Below, one piece after another: positions 55,012 through 60,363 of a stretch of DNA of 64,000 nt (position 1 is the stretch's first letter; every line of letters starts with the position of its first letter). The position numbers and the translations under genes were made by a program. Under the pieces are notes generated by a model that was not told the origin of the DNA, ran no database searches, and was given only the letters and a program-made list of their open reading frames with translations. Origin of the DNA: Trichothermofontia sichuanensis B231 (lineage in GTDB: Bacteria; Cyanobacteriota; Cyanobacteriia; B231); the NCBI RefSeq assembly GCF_026240635.1, contig NZ_CP110848.1, positions 64,501 to 128,500 of the forward strand, read 5' to 3'.

Positions 55012-55230
55012 ATGGCTGTTGAAAAAGTAAACTCTTCGTCGAGCTTGGCAGAAGTGGTCGATCGCATCCTGGACAAGGGGATTGTGGTTGATGCCTGGGT
55101 GCGGGTTTCCTTGGTAGGGATTGAACTGCTCGCCGTTGAGGCGCGGATCGTGATTGCTTCCGTGGAAACCTATCTGAAGTATGCCGAAGCGGTTGGTTTG
55201 ACGGCCCAAGCGGCGGTTCCCGCTGCCTAA
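55012..55230 (+). CDS. gvpA: Gas vesicle structural protein GvpA
   Basis: The 72-residue protein starts [20 protein letters not shown] and continues [40 protein letters not shown] and [12 protein letters not shown]. This is nearly the universal GvpA sequence, a helix-beta-beta-helix unit that polymerises as ribs into the gas vesicle wall. GGAG lies before ATG 55012. It is followed after 409 bases by gvpC. Only one gvpA copy is present here, while some cyanobacteria have several in tandem. Confidence 0.98.
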
Positions 55231-55639: not shown

Positions 55640-57112
55640 GTGGCTCTCAAGGATGTATGGCAGGCTGCACGGCAACAACGACAACAGGAAGTCCAAACGC
55701 GGCAAGCAGAGGTTCGTCAGCAGTTAACGACGATTCAAGCCCAACTGCAACAGGAGGCGGAGCAACTGCGGACCGATTTGGGCCTGTTTCGGTTGGGGCT
55801 GGCTAGTGAAAATCGGGCACGACAGACCCAATTCCAGCAGGTGCGCAACGCTTTACAACAGTTTCGCCGATCGCTCCAGCAGGAAACCCAGGCATTTCTG
55901 GGTGATGCACACCAGCAACGGCAGCAGCAGGCGGCGATGACAGCCCGAGATTTGGATGAATTTGTGCGTCTCCTTAAGGCTGACACCGCCCAGTTCCTAT
56001 CCGATTGCGCCGCTGAACGGCAGGCCGCCGCCGCCGCCGTTGCCAAACAACTGCAAGCCTTTGTGCAAGCCCTCAGACAGCAAACAGCGGAGTTTCTGGC
56101 GAGTGCGGCGGCCAATCGGCAAGCGATGGCGGCAGCCCTGCTCCAACAACTGGATGACTTTGTGCGATCGCTCCAGGTCCAAACCGCCCAATTCCTTACC
56201 TTGACAGCCCAGGAACGGGCGCAAATGGCCGAAGCGCTGATGCAGTCTCTAGGGGATTTTCGCGCCCGCTTGCGGGAGACAGTGGCGGATCTGCGCCAGG
56301 ATTTGCAATTGGATATTACGGAAATCCAGGCCCGTGTGGCCGTGTTACGGGCTGAGACCCAAACCTTTCTGACTGATACTCACGCAAAACGGCTCAAAGA
56401 TCAGGCCGAATTGCTCCAAACTCTGGCCACCTATTACCAATCCCTGCAAACCGATGTTGAGGATTATCTGGACGAACTGGCCCTGATCCGGCAAGCACGG
56501 GCTAATCAGGTCCACCGCTCCCTGGCCCAAAGCCGCCGCGATCGCGAAGCTGCTGTTGCTGAGCTGTTCGATCGCTTTGCCCGATTCCGGGCCGAGCTGC
56601 AAGCCTTCCGGGCCAACTTGGCTCACTACGTGTGGGGAACGGGAACCCCCCTGCCCGAACCGCCCCCCCTACCGCCCAAGGCAGCAACCAAACCCGTGGT
56701 CTCTGCCCCACCGGCTCAGGCCCAAACCCCGCCGGCAGCCCCTGCCAAACCTGCTCCGCCTCCTTTGACGCCGCCCCCTGCCAAAACAGTTACCCCACCC
56801 CAGCCAGAAGCTGTGACCCAGGTAGAATTTACGCCCCCGCCTACCCCGAACCCTGCATCGGCAGCCATCGCTCCGGAGCCGCCCCCGGCCCCGGCTCCGC
56901 CTGCTGCCCAGTCAGACTCCGCTAAGTTAGACTCTGCCAATGCTGTTTACGATTATCTGAAAGCTTGCCAGGGGGCGCGGTTGGCCCAGATTGAAGCAGC
57001 CCTAGGAGCTAGCCGGGTGCAAACGGTGAATGCGTTGCGATCGTTGATTGAACGCGGCATGGTTACCCAGCGTGATCGGATTTACTATATCAACGGAGGA
57101 GCTGAAGCGTGA
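55640..57112 (+). CDS. gvpC: Gas vesicle protein GvpC with proline-rich linker and C-terminal winged-helix-like domain
   Basis: The 490-residue protein starts [20 protein letters not shown] at GTG 55640. Four contiguous 33-residue repeats run 82-213 (starting ETQAFL, DTAQFL, QTAEFL, QTAQFL), with a fifth at 239-271 and diverged ones around them. GvpC repeats bind the outside of the GvpA ribs and stiffen the vesicle. Residues about 345-427 are a Pro/Ala linker. The last 55 residues ([47 protein letters not shown]) look like a winged helix, matched at the end of GvpN. Classical GvpC is about half this size and lacks the tail. The stop overlaps gvpN as GTGA. Confidence 0.88.
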
Positions 57113-58617
57113 CCACGATTCTGCAAGCGCGATCGCGCGGATTTGTCAGCACACCGTCAATTGAACGGTTAGTCACCCGCGCCCTACGGTACTTACAATC
57201 GGGATTTTCCGTGCATCTGCGGGGTCCTGCGGGTACGGGTAAAACCACCCTCGCCATGCACTTGGCTGATCTCCTCGGTCGTCCGATCATGTTGGTGTTT
57301 GGGGACGACGAGTTCAAGACCTCGGACCTGATTGGGAACCAGTCGGGTTATACCCGCAAAAAAGTTGTCGATAACTATATTCACAGCGTCGTCAAACTCG
57401 AAGACGAATTACGTCAGACCTGGGTGGATGCTCGGTTAACCCTGGCCTGCCGGGAAGGCTTTACCCTCGTCTACGATGAGTTCAACCGCTCCCGCCCGGA
57501 GGTAAATAATGTGCTCCTGTCGGCGTTGGAGGAGAAGCTGCTGGTGTTGCCGCCGACGGCCCAGCGCAGCGAGTATGTGCGGGTCAATCCCCACTTCCGG
57601 GGCATTTTCACCTCGAATCCAGAGGAATACTGCGGTGTGCACGGCACCCAGGATGCCCTGATGGACCGGTTGGTGACGATTAGCGTCCCAGAACCGGATG
57701 AACTGACCCAGCAGGAAATTCTGGTGCAAAAGGTGGGCCTCGATCGCCCCGGTGCCGCCACGATCGTGCAACTGGTAAAAGCCTTTCGCAACCAGGCCAA
57801 GGTGGAAAAATCCTCCGGCCTGCGGTCCTGCCTGATGATCGCCAAGGTGTGCCACGAACACCAGATCCCGATTACACCCCTCAATGCGGACTTCCGTGAC
57901 ATTTGCAGTGATATTCTGCTGTCCCGCACTGGCATTAGCCTGGAAGAGGCCACCACCCTGCTGTGGCACTGCTTGAATGAAATGGCGAGGCAGGAAACTG
58001 AGGCCACACAGGTACCCGGACGTTCGTTGGAGTTGGAAGCTCCCCAGGAGCCAGGTCTGGCTCTGGTCAACACGGATAGCGAGGATGAGGATCTCGAAAA
58101 CGAGGATCGCAACGCGGACCTGGCGGACCTGGATGGAGAGCCGCTGGCGATCGCCCATGAAACCCCAACCCCTCCCCCCCCCGAGCCCGAGCCAGCCCCC
58201 GTTGCCCAAAAACCTGCTAAACGGACCTCACCAACACCCAAACTGGCGTCGGCTGTGCCCACAGAACCGAAGCCGCTTGCCCCACCAGCGGTGGCGACTG
58301 AGACAGTAACTGAGACAACGACGATCGCCCCAACAGCGGTTGAGCCAGCGGCTGAGCCAGCGGTTGCTTCGGAAGTTCCACCAGCAGCCATCCCCGATTA
58401 TCCCCAGGCCGTTTATGAGTACCTGATTCAGCAGCGGGAGGCCCGGTTAACCGATATTGAGCAGGCGTTGAAACTTAGCCGTGTCCAGGTTGTGGATGCA
58501 ATTCGCACCCTGTTGGCAACCGACCTGATCTTGAAACATCGGGATGGGCCGGAAACGCGGGAGGGGGGAAAAACTCGATACCGTGTTAATGTTGCTCCAG
58601 AGGATACGGAGACGTGA
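57109..58617 (+). CDS. gvpN: Gas vesicle AAA+ ATPase GvpN with proline-rich linker and C-terminal winged-helix-like domain
   Basis: The 502-residue protein starts [20 protein letters not shown] at GTG 57109. The AAA+ core has Walker A GPAGTGKT (39-46), [20 protein letters not shown], Walker B TLVYDEFN (119-126), [20 protein letters not shown] and the sensor region [20 protein letters not shown]. It ends near 300. An acidic then Pro/Ala/Thr-rich linker follows, and a C-terminal domain at about 434-495 ([40 protein letters not shown]), like that of GvpC. GvpN is usually 300-370 residues. It acts in vesicle assembly and enlargement. Confidence 0.92.
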
Positions 58618-59066
58618 GCACCGTGACCCAAGCCCGATCATCGACTGCGACCCCGCGTACCATTACCACCGCCACCCAAGGGTCTACCCTGGCGGACATT
58701 TTGGAGCGGGTTCTGGATAAAGGGATTGTGATTGCGGGGGATATTTCAGTGTCCGTCGGTTCGACCGAGTTGCTCAGTATTCGCATTCGCCTGCTGGTGG
58801 CCTCGGTTGATAAGGCGCGGGAAATGGGGATCAACTGGTGGGAAGGCGATCCCTTCCTGAGTCACCAGAACCAAACCCTGCTGGCGGAAAATCAGCAGTT
58901 ACAGCAACGCTTAGCGGCGTTAGAGTCGCAGCTAAAGGCATTGCAACAGGCCAGTGAAACTCCGTTAGCAGCAAATCCAGCCGCAGTGGCGACAATGACC
59001 GAATCTGCCCAAGCGGCTCCCCCGCGATCGCCCCCCTCAGAGGCATCTTCACCGGACATGGGATAA
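58614..59066 (+). CDS. gvpJ: Gas vesicle protein GvpJ
   Basis: The 150-residue protein has the GvpA-like core [40 protein letters not shown] and [20 protein letters not shown] at 22-85. The WW after the core is typical of GvpJ. A coiled coil follows ([20 protein letters not shown]), then a Pro/Ser/Ala tail. GvpJ is a minor shell protein probably in the conical caps or in nucleation. Start GTG 58614 overlaps the gvpN stop as GTGA, so the three genes are translationally linked. Confidence 0.95.
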
Positions 59067-59608: not shown

Positions 59609-59887
59609 ATGAGTGCTAAAAATCCCCCCCTTTCCTCCGAAGCCTATCGACAAATGCTGGTTAAAGATGGCGAACGGCGGTTTCGGGAATGGCATGGTGA
59701 TTTTTTGCGCCATCAACAGGCATTTCGGGCTTCTCTGGCCGCCCAGCGCGATCGCTATATTCCGTCAGAAACCTATCGGCAGATGCTGGTTAGAGATGGC
59801 GAACGGCGGTTTCGGGAATGGCATCAGAATTATCTGAACTATCAAAAGCAATATCTGACTGAATTGGCCGCAAGTCGTCGCTCGTGA
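59609..59887 (+). CDS. Two-repeat protein in the gas vesicle cluster, position of gvpX
   Basis: The 92-residue protein consists of two 43-residue repeats. The first is SSEAYRQMLVKDGERRFREW with HGDFLRHQQAFRASLAAQRD, the second PSETYRQMLVRDGERRFREW with HQNYLNYQKQYLTELAASRR. The DNA of the two repeats is almost identical over about 60 bases (59644-59703 and 59773-59832), so the duplication is recent. Each repeat should be a pair of helices, with conserved YRQML, ERRFREWH and an aromatic heptad. As I recall, Anabaena has a gene named gvpX between gvpJ and gvpK; this may be its counterpart, but I cannot show homology. It overlaps the gvpK start by GTGA. Confidence 0.7.
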   Translation: MSAKNPPLSSEAYRQMLVKDGERRFREWHGDFLRHQQAFRASLAAQRDRYIPSETYRQMLVRDGERRFREWHQNYLNYQKQYLTELAASRRS

Positions 59888-60363
59888 TCCCCATGAGTGC
59901 TTCCCTGGATTTATCAGAATCTACCCCCCTGGCCACGCCCCGTCAAAATCAGGAGGCTGGCTTAGCACCTTTGTTATTAACGGTGGTCGAACTCATCCGG
60001 CAATTGATGGAAGCCCAGGTGATTCGGCGCATGGAGGCAGGACTATTGTCGGATGCGGATTTGGAGCGGGCTGCCGATAGCCTGCGGCAATTGGAAAATC
60101 AGGTTATCCAACTCTGCGAAATTTTTGACATTGATCCGGCTGATTTGAACATTGATCTAGGTGAAGTGGGATCGCTCTTACCAAAAGAAGGGGGGTACTA
60201 TCCTGGCGAAACGAGCGATCAGCCTTCGTTGTTGGAATTGCTCGATCGCCTACTGCATATCGGCGTTGTCCTCGAAGGTGACATTGACCTTGGACTTGCC
60301 GAGTTGAGTTTAATTCAAGCCAAGCTCCGCCTAGTCTTGACCTCCCGTCCTGTTGGGGCTTAA
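59884..60363 (+). CDS. gvpK: Gas vesicle protein GvpK
   Basis: The 159-residue protein has the full GvpK core: GLAPLLLTVVELIRQLMEAQ, VIRRMEAGLLSDADLERAAD, SLRQLENQVIQLCEIFDIDP, ADLNIDLGEVGSLLP and SLLELLDRLLHIGVVLEGDI with DLGLAELSLIQAKLRLVLTS. GvpK is an essential minor protein of vesicle formation. A start at GTG 59884 overlaps the previous stop by GTGA, the same arrangement as in gvpN and gvpJ; ATG 59893 is the alternative. It is the last gvp gene seen. No gvpF/L or gvpG follows within 3 kb. Confidence 0.95.
   Translation: MIPMSASLDLSESTPLATPRQNQEAGLAPLLLTVVELIRQLMEAQVIRRMEAGLLSDADLERAADSLRQLENQVIQLCEIFDIDPADLNIDLGEVGSLLPKEGGYYPGETSDQPSLLELLDRLLHIGVVLEGDIDLGLAELSLIQAKLRLVLTSRPVGA

Follow-up and report, generated by a model that had tools for sequence, protein, structure and literature searches.

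A winged-helix domain shared by the C-terminal tails of cyanobacterial GvpC and GvpN, and its possible role in docking at the gas vesicle

Introduction

The structure and genetics of gas vesicles have been studied mostly in Anabaena, Microcystis, Bacillus or Halobacterium. The canonical GvpC of Anabaena, as described, consists of repeats and short termini. On the vesicle surface GvpC was placed at approximately 900 molecules per modelled vesicle (PMC10185304), and in haloarchaea, in work on Halobacterium, GvpN was found to bind the C-terminal part of GvpC (PMC9372576).

A C-terminal likeness of GvpC and GvpN such as that analyzed here was recorded in Planktothrix in 2017. The C-terminus of the 40-kDa GvpC was reported to resemble a 60-amino acid (aa) C-terminal stretch of Geitlerinema GvpC, and one sentence stated that 28 residues of it had 64% identity with GvpN (PMC5259702). 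The text of that account gives no domain, fold, census or function. It also reported that Planktothrix strains with a 40-kDa or a 28-kDa GvpC had aerotopes of the same abundance and size (PMC5259702). Our literature search, whose coverage mostly stopped short of subscription journals, found no fold, survey or function for the tail. The present analysis concerns a gvp cluster of Trichothermofontia sichuanensis B231 in which both GvpC and GvpN carry such a tail, and cyanobacterial gvpN loci at large.

Gene cluster and protein architecture

Within the window, which is the whole 64-kb stretch of DNA analyzed, G000:C1:64501-128500 of a 4.44-Mb single-contig genome, gvpA, gvpC, gvpN, gvpJ and a gvpK fusion were all encoded in the same direction (+ strand). 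The gene of the main shell protein, gvpA (72 aa; 55012-55230), matched NCBIfam NF006874 with 136.5 bits (cut-off 100). The gvpC gene (490 aa, GTG start; 55640-57112) matched TIGR02641 in 5 stretches (26.9 bits; cut-off 18.8), and gvpN, encoding an AAA+ ATPase (502 aa, GTG start; 57109-58617), matched TIGR02640 (395.8 bits; cut-off 266.8). Both open reading frames (ORF) were found on the + strand where an earlier note on this DNA had placed them, and overlapped by 4 bp: the GTGA at 57109-57112 is common to the gvpC stop and the gvpN start, so that translational coupling of the two genes is possible. A gvpJ-like gene followed (58614-59066; PF00741 56.8 bits; best NCBIfam model GvpJ), and a 159-aa ORF (59884-60363) matching PF05121 (111.9 bits; residues 19-99) and then the GvpA/J-type family PF00741 (46.4 bits; residues 115-153) is apparently a GvpK-GvpJ fusion.

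In the interval between gvpJ and gvpK, a 92-aa ORF (59609-59887, + strand) had two similar halves with the motif YRQMLVxDGERRFREWH, and matched no Pfam family above cut-off. Two GvpF/GvpL-type genes of the same genome were remote from the gvpACNJK cluster (G000:C1:1626110-1626823 and 2218566-2219234).

The two proteins have the 33-residue repeats and the AAA+ core in common with Anabaena flos-aquae GvpC and Anabaena PCC 7120 GvpN, respectively. Residues 76-207 of GvpC (55865-56260) form four 33-residue repeats in a row, which scored 45 to 65 in ungapped matches to the published Anabaena repeat consensus and were followed by weaker repeats; the score against Pfam PF01304 was 15.8 bits, under the cut-off of 21. 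A Pro/Ala-rich linker of 98 residues (residues 334-431; 56639-56932; 36% Pro, 20% Ala) then led to a predicted C-terminal winged-helix domain (56933-57109). In GvpN, the AAA+ core (residues 12-273; 57142-57927, the TIGR02640 match range) was followed by a 138-residue linker, first acidic and then Pro/Ala-rich (residues 293-430; 57985-58398; 19% Pro, 17% Ala, 14% Glu), and by the corresponding predicted domain (58399-58614). Alignment, profile comparison and composition all bore out the observation of the earlier note that both proteins have a like C-terminal segment after a Pro-rich linker.

Homology and fold of the two tails

Local alignment of the two window tails scored 92, against 23 ± 4.4 for shuffled sequences (Z ~16). 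Profiles built from 46 GvpC and 49 GvpN tails of cyanobacterial gvpN loci matched each other over 64 columns (profile-profile comparison with hhalign, probability 99.9%, E 6.7e-32). On this sequence evidence, the GvpC and GvpN tails are homologous domains of approximately 55 residues. The tail profile found two copies only in the own genome, those on GvpC and GvpN. Identity between GvpC and GvpN tails was 0.403 within genomes and 0.394 between genomes (p 0.04, a difference of negligible size). Gene conversion between the two tails in this genome was rejected on these values, and the likeness around SRVQ to which attention had been drawn is not special to it, the tails being as alike between genomes (0.39) as within them (0.40).

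AlphaFold2, run separately on each tail alignment, predicted three helices and two strands, with the wing between the strands (core pLDDT ~90), and the winged helix-turn-helix topology H1-H2-H3-strand-wing-strand was present in both models. For the window domains, the order of elements was H-H-H-E-E in GvpC (pLDDT 81.9) and H-E-H-H-E-E in GvpN (pLDDT 79.8). The GvpC tail exceeded the Pfam HTH_IclR cut-off by approximately 1 bit (22.8-22.9 vs. 22); the GvpN tail was under the TrmB cut-off (20.2-20.3 vs. 25.6) and over the cut-off of none of the curated models. Compared with solved structures by VIA-align, the tail model matched ADAR1 Z-alpha (Z 11.4, rmsd 1.3, 66 aligned) and the winged helices of IclR, ROK, MarR and ArsR (Z 10 to 11), and many families aligned over 58 to 73 residues. 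Such similar Z values across families are normal for winged helices and give no indication of the ligand. With Foldseek alone, no solved structure reached E < 0.001. Taken from the AlphaFold2 models, the structure matches and the curated HMM scores, the winged-helix fold predicted for both tails is well supported, with no one family of the superfamily standing out, and the structure prediction that the earlier note had proposed as a check on its winged-helix reading returned a confident winged helix for each tail. The tails share the fold and weak HMM matches with the TrmB, IclR, MarR and Z-alpha families; unlike these, they hang on a shell protein and an ATPase by a long linker.

Distribution among cyanobacteria

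GvpN was over cut-off in 171 of 390 Cyanobacteria-class genomes searched. From the best-scoring matches listed, 80 gvpN loci spread over families and genera were taken as a non-random sample, and both tails were scored at every locus, those without an obvious GvpC being judged by eye. Both tails were present at 48 loci, the GvpC tail only at 10, the GvpN tail only at 7 and neither at 15, two of which had no recognizable GvpC. With the window added, the tail was carried by 59/81 GvpC and 56/81 GvpN. Winged-helix tails on cyanobacterial GvpC and GvpN are thus real and widespread. The earlier note had regarded the tail as unusual against classical GvpC and GvpN, which does not hold for cyanobacteria, where it is common; neither is it a described feature of all cyanobacterial GvpC and GvpN, being absent from part of them and mentioned briefly once, in Planktothrix. 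The check for co-occurrence that it had suggested found both tails together at 48/80 loci, the GvpC tail alone at 10/80 and the GvpN tail alone at 7/80.

Six plasmid-borne clusters from Pseudomonadota and haloarchaea had no tail, with GvpN of approximately 330 to 350 residues, and the Halobacterium and Natronorubrum clusters gave no winged-helix tail match in GvpC or GvpN. Among 38 other genomes, the only non-gvp matches to the tail profile were two ORFs with weak E-values. These two candidates for gvp-unrelated carriers of the tail, in G017 and G036, were rejected because they proved to be primase/helicase-like and their winged helix an ordinary one. An 878-aa GvpC (L217:714-3350, - strand) had a very long Ala/Glu/Lys-rich segment ahead of its winged-helix tail.

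Duplication, losses and relics

The tree of GvpN cores had a strongly supported split, with families f23, f5 and f33 on the side without tails. On the tail-bearing side, the GvpC tail was inferred to have changed 4 times and the GvpN tail 14 times, and by this tree the two tails were lost independently of each other. At the majority of f23 and f5 loci lacking the tail, GvpC ended in another conserved helical segment after a similar Pro-rich linker (...RDxVRDLLAxGAxxLxxDPSxILxxLxxM; L186-L190), which had no Pfam match over cut-off, and GvpN had no tail. The tail tree (60 columns, 6 label changes) was poorly resolved and placed GvpC and GvpN tails mostly in separate groups. From the homology of the tails, the adjacency of the genes and this mostly GvpC-versus-GvpN split, we infer one old duplication of the domain between gvpC and gvpN.

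Losses were seen on both genes. Planktothrix sp. PCC 11201 carried both tails (L102). In Planktothrix rubescens PCC 7821 (L096:5520-7900), the GvpC copies stopped just before the winged helix and the GvpN tail was intact; a linker remnant was noted there on a short ORF at ~6509. In Arthrospira sp. PCC 9108 (L106:7794-8189), a stop codon fell in helix 3 of the GvpC tail, the remainder of the domain was still readable past the stop, and the GvpN tail was intact. Family f32, which looks Nostoc-like by its repeats and GvpN, had GvpC without a tail, either lost or never present, and GvpN with a diverged tail, a relic beyond the stop codon, or none; Nostoc-type loci as sampled had GvpC without a tail and GvpN tails diverged or lost. 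Just past the gvpN stop, fragments matching the tail profile were observed at L117:965-1089 (- strand, E 4e-4) and L121:4870-4962 (+ strand, E 1e-2); they are likely decayed GvpN tails. Frameshift artefacts were rejected as the source of missing GvpN tails, with tail pieces in another frame at L079 only, and a search of the ten GvpC-only loci for a displaced GvpN tail returned no convincing piece.

These losses bear on whether the tails pair directly with each other, joining the GvpN ATPase to shell GvpC, or GvpC to GvpC. The same domain on two coupled genes, the presence of both tails at 48/80 sampled loci and the interaction of haloarchaeal GvpN with the GvpC C-terminus (PMC9372576) are what such pairing would lead one to expect. 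However, the GvpN tail was repeatedly lost where the GvpC tail was kept (10 loci), the reverse occurred at 7 loci, and the numbers of changes on the GvpN tree differed (4 vs. 14). An independent-pairs test of co-loss, with few informative pairs and little power, gave no coupling of the tails, and co-variation of the tails beyond that of the GvpN core was not detected within limited power (partial distance correlation 0.08, permutation p 0.16). Independent losses and no excess co-variation weaken an obligate pair of GvpC tail and GvpN tail, and with it the dimerization linking ATPase to shell protein that had been proposed, if taken as a required pairing. The loss and co-variation evidence applies to pairing of GvpC with GvpN and not to that of GvpC with GvpC; direct pairing as a whole appears distinctly unlikely.

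Conservation, charge and possible ligands

The GvpC tails had 53% mean column identity. Conservation was concentrated in helix 3 (Arg37 100%, Gln39 92%, Asp42 84%, Arg45 89%) and in the wing (Asp57 91%, Arg58 93%, Tyr60 100%), beside linkers whose length varied freely from 25 to 192 residues. A nearly fixed helix 3 and wing next to a free linker resembles a domain with a specific ligand. In the GvpN tail, Arg35, equivalent to Arg37 of GvpC, was conserved at 97%, and the wing was poorly conserved, so that the two tails may see different ligands.

Frequent losses, the relic GvpN tails downstream of stops and the broken GvpC tail of Arthrospira are compatible with a neutral passenger, or with a module for stability or solubility without a specific ligand. 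The identity of the GvpC tails and the invariance of helix-3 and wing residues beside such variable linkers speak against it, and we regard it as improbable.

Binding of DNA or RNA by the tails, whether as a tether to the nucleoid, in mRNA-coupled assembly or in autoregulation, would be the commonest use of a winged-helix fold, and the nearest curated HMMs are the DNA-binding families TrmB, IclR and MarR. The invariant Arg opening helix 3, the conserved basic wing and the helix-3 net charge of GvpC (+2.2, vs. +2.1 in ArsR) agree with it. Against this, the tails are single domains, placed on a vesicle-surface protein and an ATPase; the pI of the whole tail is 6.4 in GvpC and 5.3 in GvpN; an acidic residue lies within helix 3; and the GvpN wing is variable. 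In Z-alpha, an Asn and a Tyr of helix 3 contact Z-DNA. In alignment to PKZ Z-alpha, these contacts were absent from the tails, which have Val and Arg at the two sites and retain no more than the basic residue that opens helix 3. Net charge of the tail and of helix 3 was like that of cyanobacterial MarR and ArsR DNA binders in a small control (13 and 9 sequences); TrmB was dropped as a control because it was present in 2/39 genomes. Charge was rejected as a test of DNA binding, the controls giving similar and hence uninformative values, and protein docking gains nothing from it over nucleic acid. Nucleic-acid binding by the tails seems to us somewhat unlikely. That cyanobacterial gas vesicles display hundreds of tethered nucleic-acid-binding winged helices, with a matching one on GvpN, and are assembled upon DNA or RNA or anchored to it, is rather unlikely.

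Proposed role and significance

The most probable reading, held tentatively and at a little under even confidence, is that an old, duplicated docking domain tethers GvpC and GvpN to a partner at the gas vesicle by its helix 3 and wing. A winged helix on a flexible tether would have been copied between the neighboring gvpC and gvpN at an early stage of the main cyanobacterial clade that bears gvp genes. GvpC, wound round the vesicle in hundreds of copies, would hold the domain away from the surface; the ATPase GvpN, present at low abundance, would bear a diverged copy of it. The helix 3/wing face would then bring both proteins to an assembly or positioning partner of the vesicle. Docking, the protein nature of the ligand and the same or related ligands for both tails are what we infer; a protein is preferred because GvpC lies at the vesicle surface (PMC10185304) and because, in haloarchaea, the C-terminus of GvpC is a binding site for GvpN (PMC9372576).

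The tail would be accessory, with vesicle formation possible in its absence. The like aerotopes of Planktothrix strains with 40-kDa and 28-kDa GvpC argue that it is dispensable for vesicle formation (PMC5259702), as do the P. rubescens GvpC that ends before the domain and the broken Arthrospira GvpC, both beside intact GvpN tails.

The tail domain of GvpC and GvpN has so far largely gone undescribed, because the best-studied species lost it or never had it. Most sampled cyanobacterial genera carry this tethered, well conserved domain on GvpC or GvpN. It offers a concrete handle on how GvpN reaches the shell, and a natural end-domain for the engineering of vesicle surfaces.
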